Shown piece after piece: positions 1 to 11,218 of a DNA stretch of 11,218 bases (position 1 is its first letter; every line of letters starts with the position of its first letter). The notes below the pieces were generated by a model, which worked only from the letters and a program-made list of their open reading frames with translations, searched no databases and was not told the origin of the DNA. The stretch is from NCBI GenBank assembly GCA_023701085.1, contig JAMPXR010000038.1, forward strand, positions 1 to 11,218, given 5' to 3'. This stretch comes from Ramlibacter sp. Lineage in GTDB: Bacteria > Pseudomonadota > Gammaproteobacteria > Burkholderiales > Burkholderiaceae_C. The translations under genes were made by a program, and so were the position numbers.

Positions 1-91
1 CGCGCGCGCGGGAGCAGCGACGGACGCCGCGCCCGCGACCGACATCAAGTTCTGCGCGATCGACGATCCCGGCTGCGAGGCATGTCAGTGA
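1..91 (+). CDS. nrdA: Ribonucleoside-diphosphate reductase alpha subunit, C-terminal end only (partial)
   Basis: Reading from base 2, an open frame runs into TGA at 89-91 and ends in FCAIDDPGCEACQ. Class I ribonucleotide reductase large subunits end in a flexible tail with a Cys-x-x-Cys pair that passes electrons from thioredoxin or glutaredoxin to the active site; here the pair is the two Cys of CEAC (codons 74-76 and 83-85). The residues before it are Ala/Thr/Pro-rich, as expected for the mobile linker. The following gene is nrdB on the same strand, which strongly supports the call. Only 29 residues are visible; the catalytic barrel and ATP cone lie upstream of the window. The identification rests on the tail motif plus context, not on the catalytic domain. 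Confidence 0.85.
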   Translation, partial: ARAGAATDAAPATDIKFCAIDDPGCEACQ

Positions 92-200
92 CGGCTGCTC
101 GCCGCTTCATCGCGCGCAACGGCATTCAAGTGTCGGCGTTCTCCGACAGAACGTCGATGCAAACGAGCAACAAAATCTGGCGGTGATGTGAACGGACACT

Positions 201-228
201 TTGCAATTCGCATCACTGCTCACATAAT
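201..228 (+). promoter_or_regulatory. Candidate sigma70-type promoter for nrdB
   Basis: TTGCAA at 201-206 (4 of 6 to the -35 consensus) and CATAAT at 223-228 (5 of 6 to the -10 consensus) are separated by 16 bases. Transcription would start near 235, about 12 bases before the nrdB ATG at 247. This AT-richer patch stands out in a GC-rich region. It would let nrdB be transcribed separately from nrdA. I see no clear NrdR box around it. The call is by pattern only. Confidence 0.45.
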
Positions 229-246
229 CCGAGCATTGGAAAACTT

Positions 247-1455
247 ATGTTGACCTGGGACGAAGAAGTCAAGCCCGCATCGCCAGCATCCCACAGCGGT
301 TTGTTCGCAGACCGCGAGGCGGGGCATTCACCCCTTCGCCAAACCTCCTCCCCCTTCCCGCAACCCGCACCGCGCACGCTGGACGACGGCGCCGCGCCGC
401 CCGCGCACGCAGCGAAGTCCGCCATGGCGGCGAGCCAGCGCCGCGTCAACGCCGCCGACAAGCGCATCATCAACGGCCAGACCGACGTCAACCAGCTGGT
501 GCCGTTCAAGTACAAGTGGGCCTGGGAAAAGTACCTGGCCGCCTGCTCCAACCACTGGATGCCGCAGGAAGTGAACATGACGCGCGACATCGCGTTGTGG
601 AAGGATCCGAACGGCCTCACCGAGGACGAGCGCCGCATCATCAAGCGCAACCTCGGCTTCTTCGTGACGGCCGACTCGCTGGCCGCCAACAACATCGTGC
701 TGGGCACCTACCGCCACGTCACGGCGCCCGAGTGCCGGCAGTTCCTGCTGCGCCAGGCCTTCGAGGAGGCGATCCACACCCACGCCTACCAGTACATCGT
801 CGAGTCGCTGGGCCTGGACGAGTCCGAGATCTTCAACGCCTACCACGAGATCCCCTCGATCCGCGACAAGGACGAGTTCCTGATCCCCTTCATCGAGGTG
901 ATCATGGATCCTGCCTTCACGACCGGCACGCCGGAGAACGACCAGCGGCTGCTCAAGAGCCTGATCGTGTTCGCCTGCCTGATGGAGGGCCTGTTCTTCT
1001 ACGTCGGCTTCACCCAGATCCTGGCGATGGGCCGGCAGAACAAGATGACGGGCGCGGCCGAGCAGTACCAGTACATCCTGCGCGACGAATCGATGCACTG
1101 CAACTTCGGCATCGACCTGGTCAACCAGCTCAAGCTCGAAAACCCCCACCTGTGGACCCCGCAGTTCAAGGCGGAAGTCAAGGCGCTGTTCGAAAAGGCC
1201 GTCGAGCTCGAATACCGCTACGCCGAGGACACCATGCCGCGCGGCGTGCTCGGCCTCAATGCCTCCATGTTCAAGGGCTACCTGCGCTACATCGCGAACC
1301 GCCGCGCCACGCAGATCGGCCTGGAAGCGCTCTACCCGAACGAGGAAAACCCTTTCCCGTGGATGAGCGAGATGATTGACCTGAAGAAAGAGCGCAATTT
1401 CTTTGAAACCCGTGTGATCGAGTACCAGACGGGCGGCGCGCTTTCCTGGGATTGA
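247..1455 (+). CDS. nrdB: Ribonucleoside-diphosphate reductase, class Ia beta subunit (402 aa)
   Basis: This is the radical-generating small subunit of aerobic ribonucleotide reductase. With NrdA it reduces ribonucleoside diphosphates to deoxyribonucleotides in the cytoplasm. The di-iron ligands can be placed by comparison with E. coli NrdB: Asp143 (TADSLAAN), Glu174 and His177 (EEAIHTHAY), Glu247 (CLMEGLFF), Glu281 and His284 (RDESMH). Tyr181, four residues after His177, is the tyrosyl-radical position. The C-terminal tail, with Tyr393 in [12 protein letters not shown], is the part that docks on NrdA and relays the radical. The start at 247 gives the MLTWDEEV N-terminus I associate with Burkholderiales NrdB. 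A later ATG (residue 60, base 424) lies just before the conserved core. Residues about 18-65 are Pro/Ala-rich, probably disordered and variable in the family. The ribosome binding site is weak (GGA at 238-240). The gene sits 155 bases after nrdA. Confidence 0.96.
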
Positions 1456-1540
1456 AGAAGGCAGGCAGCAGGACGTGTTCGGGATTCGCGCGGGGCGATG
1501 ACCATGCCGCAAAGAAGCGTGGCTCGACCCGGCAACGGTG

Positions 1541-1574
1541 TTCATGAGGCTGGGCGCGCGCCCAACTTCATGAA
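1541..1574. repeat. Near-perfect 34-base inverted repeat downstream of nrdB
   Basis: TTCATGA (1541-1547) pairs with TCATGAA (1568-1574), and the centre is the perfect palindrome GGGCGCGCGCCC (1552-1563). Between the two stretches only one position fails to pair (C1550 against A1565), with one G-T wobble (1548/1567). There is no T-run directly after it, so it is not an intrinsic terminator by itself. It may stabilise the nrdB mRNA 3' end or serve as a protein site. It lies 85 bases after the nrdB stop and 3 bases before the terminator hairpin at 1578. Confidence 0.6.
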
Positions 1575-1577
1575 TCG

Positions 1578-1612
1578 CTCCATGCAAACCAACAAGCATG
1601 GAGTGCTTTTTT
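1578..1612 (+). terminator. Rho-independent terminator after nrdB
   Basis: CTCCATGC (1578-1585) and GCATGGAG (1596-1603) form a perfect 8-bp stem with a 10-base A/C-rich loop. It is followed by TGC and then six T (1607-1612). This fits termination of the nrdB transcript. It is only 35 bases before the next ATG, so it could also attenuate transcription into the histone-like gene if that gene's promoter lies upstream of it. Confidence 0.75.
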
Positions 1613-1613
1613 G

Positions 1614-1629
1614 GTTGATAGTGATCAAC
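1614..1629. promoter_or_regulatory. Short inverted repeat in the leader of the histone-like gene
   Basis: GTTGAT (1614-1619) and ATCAAC (1624-1629) are exact inverted copies around AGTG. The repeat starts just after the T-run of the terminator and ends 6 bases before the AGGAG ribosome binding site (1636-1640). It could be an operator or a small leader hairpin. No function is shown by sequence alone. Confidence 0.35.
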
Positions 1630-1646
1630 TTGAACAGGAGATAGTG

Positions 1647-2105
1647 ATGGCAACTGCAAAGAAACCGGCCGCCAAGAAGGCCGCAGCGAAAAAGCCGGCC
1701 GCCAAGAAGTCCGCGGCCAAGAAGGCACCGGCGAAGAAGGTAGCCGCCAAGAAGGCGCCGGCGAAAAAGGCCGCCGCGAAGCGCCCGGCCGCCAAGAAGA
1801 CCGCGGCGAAGCGCCCGGCCGCCAAGAAGGCGCCGGCGAAGAAGGCCGCCGCGAAGCGCCCAGCGGCCAAGAAGGTCGCCAAGAAGGCGCCGGCGAAAAA
1901 AGCCGCGGCCAAGAAGCCCGCTGCGAAGCGGCGTCCTGCGGCTAAGAAGGCAGCGAAGAAGCCCGCTGCGAAGAAAGCTGCGAAAAAACCCACTGCGAAA
2001 CCGGTAGCCAAGGCGGCCGCGCCTGCTGCCCCGGCTGCGCCCGCGGCTCAGACCACTCTGAACCCGCAGGCCGCCTGGCCGTTCCCGACGTCCAGCAAGC
2101 CGTAA
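1647..2105 (+). CDS. Histone H1-like, Lys/Ala/Pro-rich DNA-binding protein (152 aa)
   Basis: The protein is almost entirely degenerate copies of (A)[15 protein letters not shown] and AAKRP from residue 2 to about 120. It resembles the C-terminal tail of eukaryotic H1 and bacterial H1-like proteins (the AlgP/HctB type). Such proteins bind DNA non-specifically through Lys/Arg charge and act in the nucleoid. No globular domain is present. An Ala/Pro linker ([10 protein letters not shown]) leads to an uncharged tail, [17 protein letters not shown], with one Trp and one Phe; I recognise this tail from Burkholderiales homologues, so it is probably functional. The ATG at 1647 follows AGGAG at 1636-1640 with 6 bases between. 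The upstream in-frame extension would run through the leader hairpin and terminator, so it is not used. A strong terminator closes the gene. Confidence 0.88.
1650..2010 (+). repeat. Degenerate tandem codon repeats in the histone-like gene
   Basis: Units of about 12-15 bases of the form GCC-GCC-AAG-AAG and GCG-AAG-CGC-CCG recur throughout. The segment coding AAKRPAAKK appears three times in nearly the same DNA wording. Such arrays expand and contract by slippage, so length should vary between related strains. Confidence 0.75.
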
Positions 2106-2125
2106 GGCAAAGCGTTTTACGCATG

Positions 2126-2157
2126 AGCCCGGCACCGGCAGGTGCCGGGCTTTTTTT
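2126..2157 (+). terminator. Strong rho-independent terminator after the histone-like gene
   Basis: AGCCCGGCACC (2126-2136) and GGTGCCGGGCT (2141-2151) form a perfect 11-bp stem with a GGCA tetraloop, running into seven T (2151-2157). It lies 20 bases after the stop codon. The convergent lipoprotein gene ends at 2188, so this hairpin separates the two transcription units. On the - strand it has no T-run after the stem. Confidence 0.92.
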
Positions 2158-2187
2158 CCGTCCGCTTCGCCCCTTGCCCGCGGGGCG

Positions 2188-2865
2188 CTAGCGCTCCTGC
2201 GCGGCCAGCGCCATGCGCCGGCGCAAGCGCTGCGCCTCCTCCAGCGCGCCGGCCTGTTCGGCCCGCGCCGCCTGCACGCCCAGCCAGGCGAGCAAGGGAC
2301 GGCGCCATCCCTGGGCCGAAGCGGTGTCGGCCGCGAGCGCCAGCACGTCGGGATCGGCCCGGCCGTTGCGAAACAGGACACCCGCCGCGACCAGCCGCGA
2401 CAGCGGATCCTCGATGGCCGCGACGGCAGCCGCGCCGCCGGCCGGGGCGGCCGCCGCGCGGTGCTGCGCCGGCAGCAGGGCGAGATCGGCCGGCGCGATG
2501 CGGCCCGCCAGGTAATCGGCATAGGCCCGCTCGGCCGCCGGCGCATCGCCGCGCAGCCGCTCGAAGCCCTCGCAAGGCTCCAGCAGCAGGCTCGCCACGC
2601 GCACCGCGCAGCGCGTCAACTCGGCGCGGGCGACCAGCGCCGGCTGGCCGGTGCTGGCCAATTCGCCGCGCGCCCGCTCGAACTCGGCCGCCTCGACGCG
2701 GGCATTGCCTTGCAGGTAGGCCCGCGCGGAACGCTCCAGGGCATCGTGCGCGCTGATCTGCCAATCGGGCACGCGCGGCTTGCCGCCGCATCCGGCCAGC
2801 TGCAACGCCGCGACGACCATCAGCCCCGGCAGCAGGGTTTTCGCGCGGGCGGACATGCGTGTCAT
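2188..2865 (-). CDS. Lipoprotein downstream of an MCE gene, function unknown (225 aa)
   Basis: The start at 2865 is chosen because its ATG overlaps the TGA of the upstream MCE gene as ATGA, the usual sign of translational coupling. The N-terminus has a basic stretch, a hydrophobic segment (residues about 11-23) and a lipobox LAGC with Cys26 as the lipidated residue. The mature protein should therefore be anchored to a membrane leaflet facing the periplasm. The rest is Ala/Arg/Leu-rich and probably all helical, with a TPR-like look around residues 36-75 ([19 protein letters not shown]). Two further Cys flank a short stretch (TRC and EPC, about residues 85-97) and could form a disulfide. I do not recognise a named family. 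Position behind the MCE and permease genes suggests an accessory part of the same lipid transporter, perhaps analogous to outer-membrane Mla partners. That is inference from context. Confidence 0.8.
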
Positions 2866-3866
2866 GGCAGCTTCACCTCGGTGTCGCGCGCGAACGGCCA
2901 CTTGCGGTTCAGTTCGTTGATCATTCCCTCGATCTTGTGCAGGTTGGCCTCGACGTCCGCGCGCAAGGCGCCCAGGTCCACGGTGGCGCCGCGCACGTTG
3001 GCGCCTATGCCCTGCGCCTCGGCGAGCACCGCGTCCACGCCCTTCAGGCTGGCGCGCGTATCCGCGAGCAGCTGGTTGAGCTGCACGACGGTCGCGCGCG
3101 CGTCCCGCAGCAGGCCGTCCGGCCCGAACACCTGGGTATCGGCCTTCGCCGCGAGGCCGTCGATGCGCGCCAGCAGGGCATTGGTGCGGTCCAGTGCCGC
3201 GACCAGCTTGGCCGCGTCGGCGTCGTTGCCGAACACCGCCCCCAGCGCGCCGCGCGGTCCTTTCAGCTTGCGCGTGACCTCCTGCAAATCGTCCAGCGAC
3301 CCGCGCAAGGCCGCATCCTGGGCGGTCAACGCGCTCAGGTTCTCCAGCACCTCCTTGGCCGACGCCAGAACCCGCGGCAGCTCGGCGGTGGCGTCGCCGC
3401 GCAGTGCCGGCCGCTCGGCGCCGTCGGGCAGCGGCGGGTCGGTGAGGATGCCGGTGAAGGCCCGGATGTTGGTGCCGCCGACCAGGCCGCGCACCAGCGT
3501 GAACACGCTGGACGTGCGCAGCCAGTGCGCGTCCTTTTTCGCCACGTCGATGACGATGCGCACGTTGCCGTTGTCGGCCAGCTCGACCCGCCGGACACGC
3601 CCGATCGGAAAGCCCGAGAACGTCATGTCCATGCCGACCACCACACCCTCGGAGTCCTCGGTGAGCAGCACCAGCGTTTGCGTCGGCTCGAAGAAACCGC
3701 GCGCGTACAGCAGATACGCCACCGAGCCCGCCACCAGCAGCGCGGTGAAGACGAGCAGCAGCGCGGCCTTGAACTCCAGATGCCTGATCGGCCGCGCCGG
3801 CGCGGGCTCCGAGTTCTGGACCGGTGTGTGAGCTTGTTCCTGCATCTCAGCTTCCCATGACGCCAT
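2862..3866 (-). CDS. MCE-domain (MlaD-like) lipid-transport protein (334 aa)
   Basis: MCE proteins form hexameric rings on the inner membrane and bind or tunnel lipids through the periplasm for an ABC-type permease. The layout fits: a cytoplasmic N-terminus, one transmembrane helix at about residues 33-54, and a single MCE domain at about 62-138, with the typical GMDMTFSGFPIGRVRRVEL and GLVGGTNIRAF stretches. A long helical region follows to the end, with heptad-like Leu/Ala spacing (ELPRVLASAKEVLENL, QLNQLLADTRASLKGVD). It ends in [16 protein letters not shown], a tail I associate with Burkholderiales MCE proteins. Length is greater than E. coli MlaD because of this C-terminal helix. The start is uncertain: ATG at 3866, or ATG at 3845 (MQEQAHTP), which has GGGAAG a few bases upstream. 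The gene overlaps the next by ATGA and follows the permease gene after 125 bases. Confidence 0.9.
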   Translation of the reverse strand: MASWEAEMQEQAHTPVQNSEPAPARPIRHLEFKAALLLVFTALLVAGSVAYLLYARGFFEPTQTLVLLTEDSEGVVVGMDMTFSGFPIGRVRRVELADNGNVRIVIDVAKKDAHWLRTSSVFTLVRGLVGGTNIRAFTGILTDPPLPDGAERPALRGDATAELPRVLASAKEVLENLSALTAQDAALRGSLDDLQEVTRKLKGPRGALGAVFGNDADAAKLVAALDRTNALLARIDGLAAKADTQVFGPDGLLRDARATVVQLNQLLADTRASLKGVDAVLAEAQGIGANVRGATVDLGALRADVEANLHKIEGMINELNRKWPFARDTEVKLP

Positions 3867-3924
3867 GCGCCACCCGCGGCATATGAAAGGAGTGGGCGCG
3901 TTCGCGGGCCACCGCGGAACCGGC

Positions 3925-3985
3925 TTTGCCGGGCCGCTGGGGGCGCCCCTTGAGGGGATGCACCGAAGGCGCTTCGGGGTGGTCT
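3925..3985. repeat. GC-rich palindromic intergenic element between permease and MCE genes
   Basis: Three small palindromes follow each other: GGGGCGCCCC (3940-3949), CCCC-TTGA-GGGG (3946-3957) and CCGAAG-GCG-CTTCGG (3963-3977). They are flanked by GCCGGGCC (3929-3936) and GGTGGTC (3978-3984). The wording resembles dispersed intergenic repeats I associate with Comamonadaceae genomes, comparable in kind to REP elements. Only one copy is in this window, so its repetitive nature is from memory and not shown here. It could pause transcription or protect mRNA between the two genes. Confidence 0.5.
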
Positions 3986-3991
3986 TTCACG

Positions 3992-4795
3992 TCAGGAATA
4001 GTTGCCGGCCAGGCTGGCCGCCTCGAGCACCAGCAGCACCGCGAACATGCGCACCAGGCCTTGCAGGGCGGCGCTCTCGCGCGAACCGTCGCCCTCGACG
4101 TCGTACAGCCCCGACGCCATCGGAATGATGGACACCGCGAGGCTGAAGAACAGGGTCTTGAGCACGAAAATGAGCGACACGGCCGGATGGAACACATGGC
4201 CGAAGACATGCGTGTACGCCGGCGCGCCGGCGAAGGTCCAGCCATAGACGGCCAGGTAGGCCAGCACCAGCGCCACCACGCAGCTGAGCGCGGCCAGGGT
4301 GATGGTGGCGAACATGCCGGCCAGCGCGCGCGGCAGCGCCAGCGTCACGACCGGGTCGATGCCCTGGCGCGCCAGCGCGTCGAAATGCCCGATGCGACGC
4401 ATCTCCGCCAGCGCCGCGCCGTTGGGGATGGTGCAGCGCAGGGCGACGAAGAGCGCGGCGGTGAGGGGAATGAGTTCCAGCACCAGCACGCGGATCACCA
4501 TCTCCAGCGCGTAGCGCGACAAGCCGTAGCTCAGGGCCGTGACCACCACGATGCGCGTGATCACCAGGGTGAGCAGCGCGCACAGCACGGTGAACCACCA
4601 CAGGATGGGCGCGGTGTCCAGGTACAAGTGGCGCATCAGCGCCTGCCGCGTCTCGCGCCCGTAGCTCGATGGCGACATCGCCAGCACCAGCAGCGAGGCG
4701 CCGAAGAAGATGATGCGCCACCAGCCGGAAAGCCAGCGCAGGGGCGCCCGGCCCGTGTGGGTCAGCCTTTGGAATCGCGTGGATGCGGCGTCCAT
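3992..4795 (-). CDS. MlaE-type ABC transporter permease (267 aa)
   Basis: This is an integral inner-membrane protein of the MlaE/YrbE permease family, which works with an MCE protein and normally with an MlaF-type ATPase to move phospholipids between membranes. The family core is visible at residues about 105-165: LELIPLTAALFVALR, then an AEMRRIGHFDAL helix, then GIDPVVTLALPRALAG. Hydrophobic segments at about 27-41, 64-84, 102-120, 157-185, 205-228 and 247-263 fit a five- or six-helix permease. The length is about that of E. coli MlaE. The start at 4795 removes an Ala/Arg-rich upstream extension of 26 residues. No Shine-Dalgarno is seen before it, but TATCAT lies 6 bases upstream of the ATG, so the message may be leaderless. 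The MCE gene follows on the same strand. No ATPase gene is next to it. Confidence 0.85.
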   Translation of the reverse strand: MDAASTRFQRLTHTGRAPLRWLSGWWRIIFFGASLLVLAMSPSSYGRETRQALMRHLYLDTAPILWWFTVLCALLTLVITRIVVVTALSYGLSRYALEMVIRVLVLELIPLTAALFVALRCTIPNGAALAEMRRIGHFDALARQGIDPVVTLALPRALAGMFATITLAALSCVVALVLAYLAVYGWTFAGAPAYTHVFGHVFHPAVSLIFVLKTLFFSLAVSIIPMASGLYDVEGDGSRESAALQGLVRMFAVLLVLEAASLAGNYS

Positions 4796-4908
4796 GGCCA
4801 AATGATAGGCGAGCGCGGCGCCGAAGCCTCGCAGCGGCGACCCGGCGCCGCCCGCCGCCCGCGCCCGCCACAATAGCCGGCACGAGGCACCACGCGAAGG
4901 AGATGGCT
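4796..4908. promoter_or_regulatory. Divergent intergenic region between permease gene and gor
   Basis: These 113 bases must hold promoters for both directions. For gor, AAGGAG at 4897-4902 is a strong ribosome binding site 6 bases before the ATG at 4909. CACAAT at 4870-4875 is a possible -10, with no good -35. For the permease, TATCAT on the - strand (plus-strand ATGATA at 4802-4807) is a possible -10. I see no clear operator for OxyR or another redox regulator. Confidence 0.35.
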
Positions 4909-6276
4909 ATGGCCGATCATGACTACGACCTCTTCGTCATCGGCGGCGGCAGCGGCGGCGTGCGTGCCGCGCGCATGGCGGCGCAGCGCGGCGCCCGCGT
5001 CGCGCTGGCGGAAGCCGCGGCGCTGGGCGGCACCTGCGTCAACGTCGGCTGCATCCCGAAGAAGCTGTACAGCTACGCGGCGCACTTCGCCCACGACTTC
5101 CGGGACGCCGCCGGCTTCGGCTGGGACGTGGCCGCGCCGCGCCTGGACTGGGCGCGGCTGAAGGCCCAGCGCGCGCGGGAGATCGCCCGCCTGAACGGCG
5201 TGTACCGGCAGCTGCTGTCCGGCGTGGGCGTCGAAATCGTCACCGGCTGGGCGCGGCTGGCCGGCGGCCACGCGGTGCGGGTGCGCACAGCCGCCGACGA
5301 GCGCCGCATCACGGCCCGCCACATCCTGATCGCCACCGGCGGCACCCCGAGCGTCCCCTCGTTTCCGGGCTGCGAGCATGTGGTGACCTCCGACAACATG
5401 TACGACCTCGACCCGTTCCCGGCGCGCCTGCTGGTGGTCGGCGGCGGCTACATCGCCTGCGAATTCGCCTCGATCTTCAACGGCCTGGGTGCCCGCGTGA
5501 CGCAGCTGTACCGCGGCGAGCAACTGCTGCGCGGCTTCGACGACGACGTGCGGCATTTCATCGCGCGCGAAATGCGCAGGACCGGCGTCGACCTGCGCGT
5601 CGGCAGCAACGTGCGCGCCATCCATCGCGGCGCGCATGGCCTGGAGGCGACACTGGCCGACGGCAGCACGCTCACGGTGGACGTGGTGCTTTACGCCACC
5701 GGGCGCGTGCCGAACGTGAACGGGCTGGGCCTGGACGCCGCCGGGGTCGCCCAGGACGAGCAGTCGGCGATCGTGGTCGATGCGCATTACCGCACATCGC
5801 TGCCCTGGATCCACGCGCTGGGCGATGTGACGGCGCGGGTGCAGCTCACGCCCGTGGCCCTGGGCGAAGCGATGGCCTTCGTCAGCCACCTGTTCGGGCC
5901 GCGCGGGCGCGCCATGAGCTACGACTTCATCCCGACCGCGGTCTTCACGCATCCGAACATCGCGGCCGTGGGCTACACCGAAGCGCAGGCGCGCGCGGCC
6001 TTCCCGAAGGTCAGCGTCTACCGCAGCGAATTCAAGCCGCTGAAGCACACATTGAGCGGCAGCGGCGAACGCACGCTCATGAAGCTCGTGGTGGACGCGG
6101 CCAGCGACCGCGTGGTCGGCCTGCACATGGTGGGCCCGGACGCCGGCGAAGTGGTGCAGGGCTTCGCGGTCGCGATGAAGGCGGGCGCCACGAAGGAAGT
6201 GTTCGACAGCACCATCGGCATCCACCCGACGGCGGCCGAGGAGTTCGTCACGATGCGCGAGCCGGTACGCGGCTGA
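4909..6276 (+). CDS. gor: Glutathione-disulfide reductase (455 aa)
   Basis: This cytoplasmic FAD enzyme uses NADPH to reduce oxidised glutathione and so keeps the thiol pool reduced. The FAD-binding loop is at residues 10-17 (VIGGGSGG). The redox-active disulfide is Cys43 and Cys48 in GGTCVNVGCIPKK. The second nucleotide fold is at 176-187 (VVGGGYIACEFA); Arg202 and Arg208 (YRGEQLLR) match the pair that selects NADPH over NADH in glutathione reductases. The FAD motif ALGDV is at 303-307. The dimer-interface catalytic His-Glu pair is His439 and Glu444 in HPTAAEEFVTMR. Length equals the family norm. The start at 4909 is preferred over ATG 4903 because AAGGAG (4897-4902) is then 6 bases away instead of touching the start. 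The related trypanothione, mercuric and lipoamide dehydrogenases are less likely given the two Arg and the C-terminus. Confidence 0.95.
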   Translation: MADHDYDLFVIGGGSGGVRAARMAAQRGARVALAEAAALGGTCVNVGCIPKKLYSYAAHFAHDFRDAAGFGWDVAAPRLDWARLKAQRAREIARLNGVYRQLLSGVGVEIVTGWARLAGGHAVRVRTAADERRITARHILIATGGTPSVPSFPGCEHVVTSDNMYDLDPFPARLLVVGGGYIACEFASIFNGLGARVTQLYRGEQLLRGFDDDVRHFIAREMRRTGVDLRVGSNVRAIHRGAHGLEATLADGSTLTVDVVLYATGRVPNVNGLGLDAAGVAQDEQSAIVVDAHYRTSLPWIHALGDVTARVQLTPVALGEAMAFVSHLFGPRGRAMSYDFIPTAVFTHPNIAAVGYTEAQARAAFPKVSVYRSEFKPLKHTLSGSGERTLMKLVVDAASDRVVGLHMVGPDAGEVVQGFAVAMKAGATKEVFDSTIGIHPTAAEEFVTMREPVRG

Positions 6277-6288
6277 GATACGGCTTCC

Positions 6289-6343
6289 TTACAGCGCATT
6301 ACAAATTCGCGAGGGGGATGCAACCGCTTTACCGTTTCTTTGC
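6289..6343 (+). promoter_or_regulatory. Phased TTAC box array upstream of the first FecR/DUF6600 gene
   Basis: TTACA starts at 6289 and 6299, TTAC at 6329 and TTTGC at 6339, so the boxes are offset by 0, 10, 40 and 50 bases and all face the same side of the helix. The last box lies 52 bases before the ATG at 6391. The same boxes with identical spacing occur before the next gene (8808-8862), although the sequence between boxes 2 and 3 differs. Paired direct repeats 10 bases apart are typical of OmpR/PhoB-type response regulators. Downstream, GCGTTCTACTTC (6364-6374) is also shared and may contain the -10. The regulator is not in the window. Confidence 0.6.
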
Positions 6344-6390
6344 GATCGCCGCGCAGGCTCAGGCGTTCTACTTCTTGGGAGAAGACCGTC

Positions 6391-8784
6391 ATGACGCCTG
6401 GCCGCCTGCTTGTAGTTTGTCTGGTTCGCCTGTTGCCGGCGCTCGTCCTGGCGCTGCCTGGCGTGGCCGCGCTGGCGCAGCAGTCGGATCCGCCCGGGCG
6501 GGTGGCACGGCTCAATCATGTGCAGGGGCCGGTGGTGTTCTCGCCGGCCGGCGACAACGAATGGACCGACGCCGTCCTCAACCGCCCGCTCACGCGCGGT
6601 GACCGGCTGTGGACCGACCGCGGCTCGCGCGCCGACGTGCAGGTGGGCTCCGCCGCCGTGCGGCTGGACGGGCAGACCCATCTGGAAATCCTGGCGCTCG
6701 ACGACCAGTCGGCCCGCCTGAGCGTGACCCAGGGGACCGTGTACGCGCGGGTGCGCAGCTTGCCCGAGGGCGAGAATTTCGAGATCGACACGCCCAACCT
6801 CGCCTGGCGCGCCGCGTACCCGGGCGACTACCGCATCGACGTCGATGCGCTACGGGGCACCACCCGCGTCACCATTCATTCCGGCACCGGTGCGGTGTAT
6901 GGCGAAAACGGCCAGGCCCTGCCGCTGGGCGGCGGCCAGCAGATCACCTTTCGCGGGCGCGCGCTGGTGCAGCTGGGCGCCCAGGAGTCGCCGCCGCAGG
7001 ACGCGTTCGACCGCTGGGCGGCCGAGCGCAATCGCCTCGAGGACCAGGCGATTTCGGCGCGCTACGTGCCGCGCGAGGTCGTGGGGTTCCAGCAGCTGGA
7101 CGCCCATGGCCGCTGGGCGCACGACCCGACCCACGGCATGGTGTGGTTTCCGCAGGGCACGCCGGCGAACTGGGCGCCCTACCGCCACGGGCACTGGGAA
7201 TGGATCTCTCCCTGGGGCTGGACCTGGATCGACGACGCGCCCTGGGGCTTCGCGCCGTTCCACTACGGCCGCTGGACCCAGGTCGACTCGCGCTGGGCCT
7301 GGGTGCCCGGCCGCCTCGCGCTGCGGCCCGTGTACGCCCCGGCGCTGGTGGCATTCATCGGCGGCGCCGACAGTTCGGTCGCATGGTTTCCGCTGGGCCC
7401 GGGCGAAGCCTGGCAGCCGCCCTATCGCGCCAGCCCGGTCTATATCAGCAACGTCAACCGCCACATCCCGGTCGAGACCCCGGCCGGCTATACGCACCAG
7501 CGCAGCACGGAGGCCCTGACGGCCATCTCGGCGCAAGATTTTCATCGCGGCAAGCCGATGCGCGGCGGCTGGCTGCGCGTGGCGGCCAACACCCTGACCA
7601 ACGCCCGGATCGTGCCGCCGCCGCCGATGCCGCAAAGAAGCGAGCTGCTCGCCCACCAGCGATCGGCGCCGCCGCGCGTCACGCCGCCGGCCGAGGCCGA
7701 GATCCGCAAGGTGATCGCCACCCCCTTGTCCGGAAATACCCCGCCGGCGCCGTCCGCCGCGCGCGGCGCCGAAACGCGGCAGGCGCCGCAGGCGGACACC
7801 GCTGCTGCGGCGCCACCCGAGGCGCAGACGCAGGCCGAGGCGCAGCGCCCCTCGGCCGAACAGGCCCGGGCGCAGCGCCGGCAGGCCCGCCTGGCCGAGC
7901 GCGCCAAGCGCATCGAGCAGGCACAGCGCGAAGAACAGGCCGCACCCGAGCGCCAGGCCAGAGCCACCGTCCCGTCCCGGCCGGCCGAGGAAATCCCGCC
8001 TGGAACGCCGTTGGCCGAGCCCACGGCGCGCGCGACCGAGGACAAGCGCGCACGACAGGCCCGGACGGCCGCGGCAAGGCCGCAGGATCGGATGGCCGTG
8101 CGAGCCGTGCAGGCGCAGCGCGAAGAGGCGGCCCGGCAAGCCGCACAAGCCCGGCGCGAACAGCAGGCCTTGCAGGCCGCGCAGGAGCGGCGCGCGCAGC
8201 GCGCCAGAAGCGCCGAACAGACCCGGCGCGAGCAGGCAGCGCTCAAGACCGAGCCACTGCGGCGCGAGCAGGCGGCCCAGCGGACCCAGCGTGAACAGGC
8301 CGCCGCGCGGCGCGGCGAGCTGGCCAGGCGCGAACAGGCCCTGCGCGAGCAGCAGGCGGTGCGGGCCGCACAGGCCAAGCGCGAGCTGCAGGCGCGGCGG
8401 GCCGAGCAGGCGCGCCGCGAGAAGCAGGCACACCAGGAAGAGCAGCTGCGCCAGGACGCGCGCGCCCAGCAGGTCGAGCAGGCGCGCCGCGCCGCCGAGG
8501 ATGACGCGCAAGCCCTGCGCGAGCAGCGCAACCAGCGCGAAGAACAAGCCCGCCGCGAGGAACAAGCCCGGCGCGAAGCGCAGGCGCGCGAGCAGGCCCA
8601 GCGCGAGGCCTGGCAGCGCCAGCAGCAGGCGATCAGCGAGCAGTGGCGGCGCGACAACCAGACGTACGAGCAGCAGCAGCGCGAGCGGATCCGGCAGCGT
8701 CCCGACCTGCGCGATGAGCGCCGGCCCGCACCAGAGATCTGGCAACGCGGCATCCCCATCCTGAACCCGGGGCGCACCAGCTGA
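6391..8784 (+). CDS. Exported FecR-like/DUF6600-like protein with long charged coiled tail (797 aa)
   Basis: The start at 6391 follows GGAG (6378-6381) with 9 bases between, and gives a clean Sec signal peptide with cleavage expected after ALA at 29. Residues about 38-165 are a FecR-like beta domain (GDRLWTDRGSRADVQVG, ENFEIDTPN, PGDYRID). Residues about 225-350 are a Trp/Gly/Tyr/Pro-rich block (HGHWEWISPWGWTWIDD, PWGFAPFHYGRW) of the DUF6600 type. From about 430 to 785 the protein is Ala/Arg/Gln/Glu only, with units such as RREEQARREAQA, probably a very long charged helix or coiled coil. No catalytic residues are evident and there is no second membrane segment. It should be a periplasmic or surface-associated structural or binding protein. 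The true FecR sigma-regulator role is unlikely: there is no N-terminal anti-sigma domain. Its neighbour at 8912 is a tandem paralogue with the same upstream boxes. The biological role is not known to me. Confidence 0.88.
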   Translation: MTPGRLLVVCLVRLLPALVLALPGVAALAQQSDPPGRVARLNHVQGPVVFSPAGDNEWTDAVLNRPLTRGDRLWTDRGSRADVQVGSAAVRLDGQTHLEILALDDQSARLSVTQGTVYARVRSLPEGENFEIDTPNLAWRAAYPGDYRIDVDALRGTTRVTIHSGTGAVYGENGQALPLGGGQQITFRGRALVQLGAQESPPQDAFDRWAAERNRLEDQAISARYVPREVVGFQQLDAHGRWAHDPTHGMVWFPQGTPANWAPYRHGHWEWISPWGWTWIDDAPWGFAPFHYGRWTQVDSRWAWVPGRLALRPVYAPALVAFIGGADSSVAWFPLGPGEAWQPPYRASPVYISNVNRHIPVETPAGYTHQRSTEALTAISAQDFHRGKPMRGGWLRVAANTLTNARIVPPPPMPQRSELLAHQRSAPPRVTPPAEAEIRKVIATPLSGNTPPAPSAARGAETRQAPQADTAAAAPPEAQTQAEAQRPSAEQARAQRRQARLAERAKRIEQAQREEQAAPERQARATVPSRPAEEIPPGTPLAEPTARATEDKRARQARTAAARPQDRMAVRAVQAQREEAARQAAQARREQQALQAAQERRAQRARSAEQTRREQAALKTEPLRREQAAQRTQREQAAARRGELARREQALREQQAVRAAQAKRELQARRAEQARREKQAHQEEQLRQDARAQQVEQARRAAEDDAQALREQRNQREEQARREEQARREAQAREQAQREAWQRQQQAISEQWRRDNQTYEQQQRERIRQRPDLRDERRPAPEIWQRGIPILNPGRTS
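7840..8700 (+). repeat. Degenerate GCGC-GAG-CAG-GC repeats coding the charged tail
   Basis: The DNA repeats short words such as CGCGAACAGGC, CGCGAGCAGGC and GCCCGGCGCGAA in frame, coding R-E-Q-A and A-R-R-E units. The period is loose, mostly 15-24 bases. Expansion or contraction by recombination is likely. The low-complexity composition makes homology searches with this part unreliable. Confidence 0.6.
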
Positions 8785-8807
8785 GGATCGCCCCGGGGCC
8801 GCTCGGC

Positions 8808-8862
8808 TTACAGCCGATTACAGAAAACGGCCGGGCCCGGGGCCGCTTTACAGAGCCTTTGC
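8808..8862 (+). promoter_or_regulatory. Phased TTACA box array upstream of the second FecR/DUF6600 gene
   Basis: TTACAG starts at 8808, TTACAG at 8818, TTACAG at 8848 and TTTGCAG at 8858: offsets 0, 10, 40 and 50, exactly as at 6289-6343. This copy is closer to a consensus of TTACAG. The interval between boxes 2 and 3 is a G/C run here and mixed sequence there, yet has the same length. The last box starts 54 bases before the ATG at 8912. GCGTTCTTACTTC (8882-8894) matches the shared element before the first gene, with one extra T. CGGC-TTACA-GCCG (8804-8816) is also a small hairpin. The array lies in the 127-base gap after the first gene, so the second gene probably has its own promoter. Confidence 0.65.
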
Positions 8863-8911
8863 AGCACTCCGGCCGCGTTGCGCGTTCTTACTTCATGGGA
8901 GATCCATCACC

Positions 8912-10927
8912 ATGACGACCCAGCGCATGCTATCCGGCGTATTCCTGTCCCTGTCGCGCGTCCTGCCGCTGTTGATCCTTGCCTTTGGCAGCATGGCCGC
9001 GGCCGCGCAATCCGACCCGCCCGCCCGCGTGGGCAATTTGAGCCACCTGGAGGGGACGGCTGCGCTCGCACCCCCGGGTGACTCCGAATGGACCGACGCG
9101 GTGCTCAACCGTCCGATCACCCGCGGTGACCGCCTCTGGACCGACCGCGGCGCGCGTGCCGAAGTGCATCTGGGCTCCGCCGTCCTGCACGTGGACGGCG
9201 AGACCTTCCTGGATTTCACCGCCCTGGACGCGCAGGTGCTGCAGGCCAGCCTGAACGAGGGCACGGTCAACGCCCGCGTGCGCGAACTGGACGCCGGCGA
9301 GAACTTCGAGATCGACACGCCGCAGCTGGCGCTTCGCGCGTCGCAGCCCGGCGACTACCGCATCGACGTGGATTCGGCGCGCGGCACCACCCGCGTGACG
9401 GTGCGCAGCGGCATGGCGCTGGTGTACGGCGCCGGCGGCGAGGCGCAGCAGCTGCAAGCGGGCCGGCAGATCACCTTCACCGGACGCGAACTGGAGCGCG
9501 TCGCGGTGCAATCCCCGCAGGAAGACGGTTTCGACCGCTGGGCCGCCGACCGCAACCGCCGCGAAGACGAGTCGCTCGCCGCGCGCTACATCCCGCGCGA
9601 GGTGGTGGGTTATCACCAGCTCGACGCGTACGGCAGCTGGGCGCAGGACCCGAGCTATGGCATGGTCTGGTTCCCGCGCGTGACGGTGGCCGACTGGGCG
9701 CCCTACCGCTACGGGCACTGGGAATGGATTTCGCCCTGGGGCTGGACCTGGATCGACGACGCGCCCTGGGGCTTCGCCCCCTTCCATTACGGCCGTTGGA
9801 CCACGATAGGTTCGCGCTGGTGCTGGGTGCCCGGGCGCATCGGCCCGCAGCCCATTTACGCACCGGCCCTGGTGGCGTTCATCGGCAGCGGTTCCGGCTG
9901 GAGCCTGACCCTCGCTTCCGGCCCCGGCATCGGGTGGTACCCGCTGGCGCCCGGCGAAGCCTGGCGCCCGTATTACCGCAGCAGCCCGGTGTATGTCCGC
10001 AACGTGAATCGCAACATCGTGGTGAACAGCCAGTCGTTCGATTCCGCCGCGGCGCACGCGCACCGGCGTCGCGGCGAGGCGATCACGGCGATGCGGGTGG
10101 AGGATTTCAGCCGCGGCCGCCCGGTGCCCGGCCACTGGAGCCGCGTCAGTCCGGCCGAAGTCGCGCGCGCCCCTCTGGCGCCGCTCGCGTCCATGCCGGC
10201 GCCCCGCCGCTTCGGCGATGCCGCCCGCGGTGGGCCAGCGCGCACACAGGCGCCCGCTCCCAACTCCGCCCCTGCGGCGGTCGTGCCGCGCGAGCCGCTC
10301 GCCGGCACGCGCCCCGGCTTGCGGCCACGCGATGACGCCCGTGCGCAGGAGCAGCCGCCGCGCCGCGCACCCCGGCCACAGGCGGAAGTCCCGCGCCGGC
10401 CATTCGAGCAGGGGCCGGATCGGCGCGCGAATGATGAGCAACGCGCGCAGGACAACCAACGCCGCCAGCAACAGCAGGAACAGGCCCGACGTGACCAACA
10501 GGTGCGGCAGGAGCGCGACCGGCGCGAACAGCAGCAGGCGCACGAGCAGCAGGAGCAGCGGCGCGCGCAGCAGGAGCAGCTCCAGCGCGAGCAGGCGCTG
10601 CGGCAGCAGCAGGCGCAGCAGGAGCGCCGGCAACAGCAGCAAATGCGACAGCGCGAGCAGGAGCAGCGCCAGCAGCAGGCCCTCCAGGAACGGCAGCAGC
10701 ACCAGCAGCGGCTGCAGGAGCAGCGCGAGCAACGCCCGCAGCAGGCCGCGCAGGAGCGGCCGCGCGCGCAAATCCCCGCCCCGGCCGCCGTGCAGGCGGG
10801 GCCGCCGCAGCGCGGCGAGGGACGTGAGCGCGCGGCGCAGCGCGACCCCGGCGGGCGCGGCGAGCGCCGCTCACCGGACGACGGGGACGGCCGCGGGCGC
10901 GGCCAGGGTCCGGGGCGAGGGGGCTAG
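8912..10927 (+). CDS. Second exported FecR-like/DUF6600-like protein with Gln/Arg-rich tail (671 aa)
   Basis: This is a tandem paralogue of the gene at 6391. The start at 8912 follows GGAG (8898-8901). The signal peptide should be cut after AAA or AAAAQ near residue 32-33. The FecR-like domain is at about 38-170 (RGDRLWTDRG, ENFEIDTPQ, PGDYRID). The Trp-rich DUF6600-like block is at about 226-360; the stretch from HWEWISPWG to FHYGRW (residues 269-295) is identical to the paralogue. Compared with it, residues 326-340 (GSGSGWSLTLASGPG) include an insertion of about ten residues. The tail differs: a Pro/Ala linker to about 500, then Gln/Arg-rich repeats (RRQQQQEQARRDQQ) to about 625, then an Arg/Gly/Asp end (GRGRGQGPGRGG). 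It is likely periplasmic or surface-exposed. No enzyme motif is visible. Shared upstream boxes suggest co-regulation with the first copy. Confidence 0.88.
   Translation: MTTQRMLSGVFLSLSRVLPLLILAFGSMAAAAQSDPPARVGNLSHLEGTAALAPPGDSEWTDAVLNRPITRGDRLWTDRGARAEVHLGSAVLHVDGETFLDFTALDAQVLQASLNEGTVNARVRELDAGENFEIDTPQLALRASQPGDYRIDVDSARGTTRVTVRSGMALVYGAGGEAQQLQAGRQITFTGRELERVAVQSPQEDGFDRWAADRNRREDESLAARYIPREVVGYHQLDAYGSWAQDPSYGMVWFPRVTVADWAPYRYGHWEWISPWGWTWIDDAPWGFAPFHYGRWTTIGSRWCWVPGRIGPQPIYAPALVAFIGSGSGWSLTLASGPGIGWYPLAPGEAWRPYYRSSPVYVRNVNRNIVVNSQSFDSAAAHAHRRRGEAITAMRVEDFSRGRPVPGHWSRVSPAEVARAPLAPLASMPAPRRFGDAARGGPARTQAPAPNSAPAAVVPREPLAGTRPGLRPRDDARAQEQPPRRAPRPQAEVPRRPFEQGPDRRANDEQRAQDNQRRQQQQEQARRDQQVRQERDRREQQQAHEQQEQRRAQQEQLQREQALRQQQAQQERRQQQQMRQREQEQRQQQALQERQQHQQRLQEQREQRPQQAAQERPRAQIPAPAAVQAGPPQRGEGRERAAQRDPGGRGERRSPDDGDGRGRGQGPGRGG
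10430..10760 (+). repeat. Degenerate CAG/GAG-rich repeats coding the Gln/Arg tail
   Basis: In-frame words such as CAGCAGGAGCAGC and CAGCGCGAGCAG recur with loose period, coding R-E-Q-Q and Q-Q-A units with short poly-Gln runs (up to four). It resembles the tail of the paralogue in design but not in wording, since Gln replaces Ala and Glu. Length polymorphism by slippage is expected. Confidence 0.6.
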
Positions 10928-10946
10928 GGCCCTATCGGCCAAAGCG

Positions 10947-11210
10947 TCAGTTGACCGCTTCCTCCCGGAAGGACCGAACCACACTGGAGGATTTATCCTC
11001 GTCCGGCGGCAGGTAGATGGTGGTGCGGTCGATCTTCGCGTCGTAGGCCGCCAGTTCAGCGCTGGCGCTGCGGATCACGGCTTTGTCCAACGGATGGCAT
11101 TGGCGCTGACTCAGGCGGCTCAAGGACTCCGAACGCTCGATCATCTGGCGCACGCGGGCCGGGTCCGTCATCAGGGCAAAGGGGTTGGCCGCCGCTGTTG
11201 CTGTTCTCAT
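10947..11210 (-). CDS. Small conserved protein of unknown function (87 aa)
   Basis: The frame begins at ATG 11210, eight bases from the window end, so the ribosome binding site cannot be judged. The protein has no signal peptide or membrane segment and is likely cytoplasmic. It begins MRTATAAANPFALMTDPARV, continues with a helical stretch (RQMIERSESLSRLSQ), then QCHPLDKAVI with its only Cys next to a His, and ends in a charged segment (YLPPDEDKSSSVV). The NPFALM, SERL-like helix and C-x-PLDK pattern is one I associate with short hypothetical proteins in Burkholderiales, so it is probably a real gene. It is convergent with the FecR/DUF6600 gene, with 19 bases between the stops; TAGGGCCCTA (10925-10934) is a small palindrome there, but no T-run follows. 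No function can be assigned. Confidence 0.7.
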   Translation of the reverse strand: MRTATAAANPFALMTDPARVRQMIERSESLSRLSQRQCHPLDKAVIRSASAELAAYDAKIDRTTIYLPPDEDKSSSVVRSFREEAVN

Positions 11211-11218
11211 TCGCTGAA

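Follow-up and report, generated by a model that had tools for sequence, protein, structure and literature searches.

Four-box direct-repeat arrays before tandem FecR/DUF6600 genes of Ramlibacter as candidate sites for an OmpR/PhoB-family activator

What controls a tandem pair of genes for FecR-fold proteins of the DUF6600 family in Ramlibacter sp., each of which is preceded by the same ladder of four short boxes? The question arises from an 11,218-nucleotide stretch of DNA (GenBank assembly GCA_023701085.1, contig JAMPXR010000038.1, positions 1 to 11,218 of the forward strand), and the whole of this stretch is called the window below. Sequence comparisons make it very probable that this ladder is bound by a regulator. 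Our favored interpretation, to which we assign a probability of roughly 60%, is that it comprises tandem sites for an activator of the OmpR/PhoB family in a promoter that carries no conserved -35 element. The function of DUF6600 is unknown, and a conserved promoter code offers a handle on when these genes are expressed and which signaling system commands them. A full-text search of the open-licence literature returned no paper that names DUF6600, and no description of the array itself was noticed among the papers listed there.

Arrays in the window and their conservation in relatives

Both arrays lie on the plus strand before the tandem genes, exactly where a preliminary description of this DNA had placed them. 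Reading of the sequence and a pattern search agree on boxes at 6289 (TTACA), 6299 (TTACA), 6329 (TTAC), and 6339 (TTTGC) for array 1, and on the corresponding boxes at 8808, 8818, 8848, and 8858 for array 2. The four-box pattern did not occur in 200 dinucleotide shuffles of the window. The offsets of 0/10/40/50 given earlier hold for the first pair, whose boxes are spaced by 10, but the second pair fits better as TTTAC and TTTGC spaced by 11, such that each array contains two head-to-tail repeats with a spacing of 10 or 11. In this register the distal pair is TTACA-N5-TTACA (6289..6303 in array 1, where it is kept in relatives, and 8808..8822 in array 2). The proximal pair is TTTAC-N6-TTTGC, located at 6328..6343 (boxes at 6328-6332 and 6339-6343) and at 8847..8862 (boxes at 8847-8851 and 8858-8862). 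After a further 19 bases comes a conserved GCGTT overlapping a -10-like hexamer, which is TCTACT in array 1 (6363..6372, with GCGTT at 6363-6367 and the hexamer at 6367-6372) and TCTTAC in array 2 (8882..8891, with GCGTT at 8882-8886 and the hexamer at 8886-8891). These hexamers are putative -10 elements. From the end of the array to the likely ATG there are 48 positions for the first gene (ATG at 6391) and 50 for the second (ATG at 8912). A scan of the window against Rfam gave no matches.

The first gene (6391..8784, plus strand) encodes a 797-amino-acid FecR-fold/DUF6600 protein (Pfam PF20245) with a long Q/R-rich tail, and the second (8912..10927, plus strand) encodes a 671-amino-acid DUF6600 paralogue, assigned by Pfam, that is 63% identical to it. 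Among the matches listed, the nearest named relatives are from Caenimonas soli and Ramlibacter. A structure model covering residues 1-390 of the gene 1 product (mean pLDDT 80.5) resembles anti-sigma domains of the FecR/PupR type (PDB 4m0h and 6ovk, E-values of 2e-7 to 6e-7), and a search of PDB sequences with a protein profile gave no matches. The gene 1 product carries a putative export signal, recognized by eye, and FecR-fold/DUF6600 products are thought to be exported. The two upstream regions are similar beyond the boxes as well. Because the genes are paralogous, two matching arrays in one window do not by themselves prove selection, and it is conservation in other species that does.

To avoid selection by the pattern itself, homologues were gathered by protein similarity (for relatives, the best 80 of 343) and their promoters were examined afterwards. 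One homologue promoter (L064) was too short upstream and stands outside the box test, and L067, whose stretch holds a stop, stands outside the protein alignment. Over all identity bands, 28 of 111 promoters carry the four boxes, and shuffled promoters (20 per promoter) carried none in any band. At a protein identity of at least 70%, and with the two window genes included, the four boxes are present in 16/16 promoters and the proximal core in 15/16. The corresponding fractions are 3/6 and 4/6 at 60-70% identity, 4/21 and 14/21 at 55-60%, 5/26 and 6/26 at 50-55%, and 0/42 and 2/42 below 50%. The array is thus a genuine feature maintained by selection, yet confined to a lineage. The earlier claim that conserved boxes, diverged filler, and near-fixed spacing mark these sites is borne out by the orthologues of other species, with the boxes kept in every promoter of the closest band, and the same pattern of persisting boxes and diverged filler is seen in Polaromonas.

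Homologues that lack boxes had been named as evidence that would count against the array, and here the outcome is divided: the boxes are kept in more than two dozen promoters, but they are missing from all homologues below 50% identity and from several second copies. Among 20 further homologue promoters that were fetched, only six matched the search expression for the core, and the other 14 include paralogues of about 50% identity without boxes. One of these 14 (L246) retains TTTAC-N6-TTTGC, with GCGTT at a greater distance. Where a second gene copy closely follows the first in other loci (L241, L242, L253, and L254), it has no array, which suggests co-transcription, whereas the window copies have one each.

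Reach and anatomy of the promoter

The occurrence of the array across genomes, which the preliminary description had offered as a check, speaks in its favor: the full pattern matches 17 times, in 13 of 60 genomes of the genus, against no match in a backward control. The genome that carries the window (3.1 Mb over 543 contigs, about 81% complete) has two matches, both of them inside the window, and again none in the backward control. The suggestion of a broad envelope regulon is not supported, however, since all 17 strict matches precede DUF6600 homologues and nothing else. A looser core pattern, TTTAC-N6-TTNNC-N16..20-GCGTT, matches 55 times in 35 of the 60 genomes versus 13 times in the control, and 49 of these 55 matches precede FecR/DUF6600 homologues. 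For 30 of them loci were available, and 27 of those precede such homologues. Of the remaining 25 matches, 22 do so as judged by their position next to protein matches, by loci, or by fetched stretches, including one at a contig end (G017:C282) that was included on the strength of matched letters identical to those of L153. The remaining six matches (L136, L143, L148, L261, L262, and L265) do not. The core targets include a second gene class, and the one member scanned (L135) matches Pfam FecR and not DUF6600. The proximal pair with GCGTT 19 bases on is the wider core and the distal pair a lineage-dependent module, and each genome seems to contribute only one or two genes to the regulon.

The composition of the promoter was examined in two sets. 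An anatomy profile was built from 43 nonredundant promoters (L136, L143, and L148 were removed, and promoters at least 80% alike were dropped, reducing 46 to 43), and a palindrome survey covered 45 promoters (L261, L262, and L265 were removed as further non-FecR matches). The search pattern behind both sets forces TTTAC and GCGTT, so those letters cannot count as independently conserved there, and the distal set of the profile, selected for agreement with 8 or more of the 10 box letters, is also partly forced. The promoter test sampled by protein similarity is independent of these choices. In the profile, 23 of 43 promoters carry a distal pair, whose TTACA precedes the proximal TTTAC by 38 (2 promoters), 39 (11), 40 (9), or 29 bases (1). 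The lone 29-base distance is shorter by one helical turn, which fits a demand for phase. Each of the six columns at the would-be -35 position carries at most 0.5 bits, and since no -35 is conserved there, the proximal pair may take its place. A weak -10-like hexamer follows GCGTT.

In the survey of 45 promoters, a stricter expression found the distal pair in 22 (21 at -29 to -40 and one at -55), and a palindrome was found in 16 (nine exact CGTGA-N5-TCACG and seven variants), with 14 of these 16 at -48 to -51. Both modules occur together in one promoter, and eight promoters have neither. In L016, L019, L047, L135, L155, L263, and others, the palindrome takes the place of the distal TTACA pair, some 49 bases upstream of the proximal TTTAC. 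Because the sequences are related, the cases behind this mutual exclusion cannot be counted as independent events. The exchange of upstream modules between lineages presents a natural experiment in promoter rewiring.

Candidate regulators and rival explanations

Head-to-tail repeats of 10-11 bases just upstream of a weak promoter are a usual layout for activators of the OmpR/PhoB family. In the mechanism that we favor, phosphorylated dimers of a response regulator from this family would bind head to tail on both direct-repeat pairs, whose separation is about four helical turns. With the proximal pair ending right before the would-be -35 position, a protein bound there could contact RNA polymerase. 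The conserved GCGTT and the weak -10-like hexamer downstream would complete each activator-dependent promoter, the distal pair might add strength or a second input, and the output would be the FecR-fold/DUF6600 protein. The sequences themselves establish the boxes and their spacing, the conservation of both in close homologues, the near-exclusive association with this gene family, and the existence of candidate regulators. We infer the binding of a regulator, activation and not repression, the -10 assignment, and the identity of the regulator. The proposal of an OmpR/PhoB-type site in the preliminary description gains from the resemblance of the direct repeats to published OmpR and RstA boxes, while the binding protein itself is still a candidate.

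In the relative G034, the OmpR/PhoB DNA-binding domain is matched 18 times. Seven of these 18 regulators were scanned against models, and among them are one OmpR equivalog (420.5 bits, cut-off 331), one CreB equivalog (312.8 bits, cut-off 273), and one protein that reaches the PhoB cut-off. The best score of the seven against the RstA model was 181, with a cut-off of 330, and the RstA-like L165 scored 164 bits. OmpR is present in 59/59 genomes of the genus, including that of the window, with 94-100% identity. OmpR leads the candidates for the distal pair, given the likeness of that pair to published OmpR-type boxes. Separately, a GCAA-N4-TGTAAC box is conserved before ompR in 30/30 loci read (L211-L240), which is possibly a sign of autoregulation. 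A histidine-kinase gene also carries, at its 3' end, a TTTAC-N6-TTACA pair with a conserved noncoding flank in L005 (1500-1515), L183, L187, L204, L206, L207, and L208, facing a heptosyltransferase gene in L005, and a pair recurs at this place in L200. This pair was considered as a lead to the regulator and set aside, as it is not universal and G034 is without it.

Several observations weigh against the interpretation as OmpR/PhoB-family sites, or against OmpR in particular. No gene of this family was noticed adjoining the FecR/DUF6600 genes in the neighbor clusters of the 80 loci in which linked regulators were surveyed, and a LysR-type gene, discussed below, is instead linked to part of the array loci. 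The array also thins out with protein distance, as seen below 50% identity and in the further promoters that were fetched. The two pairs differ in spacing and sequence, and different proteins may therefore bind each. The box before ompR has a spacing of 9 and not 10, such that OmpR autoregulation neither proves nor excludes a link to the array. If a universal OmpR were the regulator, more targets would be expected, yet matches to the distal pair are mostly tolB-like. A scan with this pair, run as a route to a broad regulon, gave 30 matches with loci, 18 of which are tolB-like coding DNA, and the broad regulon was rejected. The peptide FTG.Y flags 19 of the 30; 18 of them read TFTG.YNISP, and the other, L200, is not tolB-like. 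A TolB domain was assigned by Pfam for L184 and L196, and the other 16 were called from the shared peptide only. The tolB codons for FTG.YN, in L184, L196, and others, imitate the distal box pair and act as a decoy in motif scans.

Other explanations must also be considered. The proximal box and GCGTT might be the -35 and -10 elements of a promoter for an ECF-type sigma factor dedicated to the FecR/DUF6600 family, with the other boxes serving as an upstream activator site. CGTT-type -10 elements are known for some ECF sigma factors, the targets per genome are few and share the FecR fold, and GCGTT varies less than an ordinary -10 hexamer (columns 36-39 are 98-100% conserved in the 43 promoters, mostly forced by the search pattern). 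However, ECF promoters usually space their -35 and -10 elements by 16-17 bases, whereas about 20 separate box 4 from CGTT; the same box also occurs four times, twice with no GCGTT nearby, and no sigma gene was noticed in the recurrent neighbor clusters, which were read by eye with no systematic check. We regard this explanation as unlikely. A place for the proximal pair in the CreBC regulon of peptidoglycan stress, as a CreB-type tag, is quite unlikely as well. TTTAC-N6-TTTRC has the same spacing as the cre/blr tag TTCAC-N6-TTCAC (PMC4689548), the promoters of L019 and L023 in relatives read TTTAC-N6-TTCAC, and the CreB equivalog of G034 is noted above; CreB-type regulators also share operons with LysM/FecR proteins in Burkholderiales (PMC5192318). 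In the window, however, the pair reads TTTAC-N6-TTTGC and not TTCAC-N6-TTCAC, and a perfect tag, TTCACACAGACTTCAC, follows creBC in G034 (L272:2630-2645, minus strand, between creC and the next gene). CreB thus seems to keep TTCAC there, which argues against CreB at the window boxes.

A LysR-type regulator encoded beside the FecR/DUF6600 genes is a very unlikely binder of the array, despite its linkage. Pfam assigns the gene to the LysR type. Six of 14 array loci (L036:2962-3864, L038, L039:1600-2505, L042, L043, and L052) have its orthologue (at least 63% identity) upstream of the FecR/DUF6600 gene, whereas the other 66 loci examined do not. The gene is found at an E-value of 1e-90 in 22/60 genomes of the genus, and in 10 of these 22 it is no farther than about 1.5 kb from a FecR/DUF6600 promoter core. 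It is not linked in the window, though, and at the same threshold 7 of the 13 strict-array genomes gave no match, while it is present in the other 6 but also in 16 of the 47 remaining genomes. It had no match in G069 (99% complete, all candidates scored) or in G062 and G063 (both 100% complete, with 39/58 and 39/47 candidates scored), and these absences argue that it is a neighbor and not the general regulator. LysR sites are usually dyads with T-N11-A, and the direct repeats of the array are unlike them. A sigma-54 activator, likewise set aside, is found in 15 of the 80 neighbor loci and in none of the 14 array loci. Binding by a regulator outside the OmpR/PhoB family, or use of the array as a repressor operator, is improbable: the sign of regulation cannot be told from position alone, but the layout of repeats before a weak promoter is typical of OmpR/PhoB activators. 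That the boxes are a functionless remnant of a gene and promoter duplication would fit tandem paralogues whose upstream regions are alike beyond the boxes, and this is the most improbable of the explanations considered, as boxes are kept while filler has diverged in all the close homologue promoters and in Polaromonas, and as one promoter is shorter by a full helical turn with its phase kept.

A bolder form of the two-component interpretation can also be stated, which we hold to be doubtful. A dedicated circuit, distinct from OmpR, RstA, and CreB, might control only FecR/DUF6600 proteins across Comamonadaceae, through a constant core (TTTAC-N6-TTNNC and GCGTT) joined to either a distal TTACA pair or a palindrome like CGTGA-N5-TCACG about 49 bases upstream, the latter read by a different second regulator. 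The FecR-fold product might then feed back as a periplasmic sensor partner.

Neighboring genes and comparison with known systems

Upstream of the tandem genes, a glutathione-reductase-type oxidoreductase is encoded at 4909..6276 on the plus strand, and array 1 occupies the short gap behind it. Positions 2188-4801, on the minus strand, hold MlaE- and MlaD-type transport genes and a small lipoprotein-like reading frame, which probably form a lipid transport operon. A Lys/Ala-rich repeat protein at 1647-2105 matches the histone H1-like nucleoprotein HC2 of Pfam (54.2 bits, cut-off 40).

Several known systems share features with this locus. The BiofilmReg operon of Burkholderia (PMC5192318) combines a CreB-type regulator, a LysM/FecR protein, and a CHASE2 kinase, and thereby couples, in the same order of bacteria, a FecR-domain protein to an OmpR-type two-component system. 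The genes there form one operon, whereas no such regulator was noticed near the genes described here, whose products bear DUF6600. The cre/blr tag of CreBC/BlrAB shares the N6 between five-base boxes with the proximal pair and differs in reading TTCAC/TTCAC where the window has TTTAC/TTTGC, with the true tag standing by creBC in a relative. The RstA box is TACA-N6-TACA, with one DNA-binding domain per TACA (PMC4117788). Exact TACA-N6-TACA lies within the distal pairs of the window (TACAGCGCATTACA in array 1), yet none of the seven scanned G034 regulators is an RstA equivalog, the RstA-like L165 remaining far below the cut-off. The OmpR box of EnvZ/OmpR differs from the arrays in that the proximal pair here is spaced by 11 and ends in TTTGC, and no broad target set was found with the box. 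It resembles them in its head-to-tail half-sites spaced by 10 (TTTAC...TTACA), and the OmpR box predicted in Acidithiobacillus caldus, TTTACGATTTGTTACAAAAA (PMC9861516), is similar to distal pairs found in relatives, for example TTTACAGCGGATTACAAAAA.

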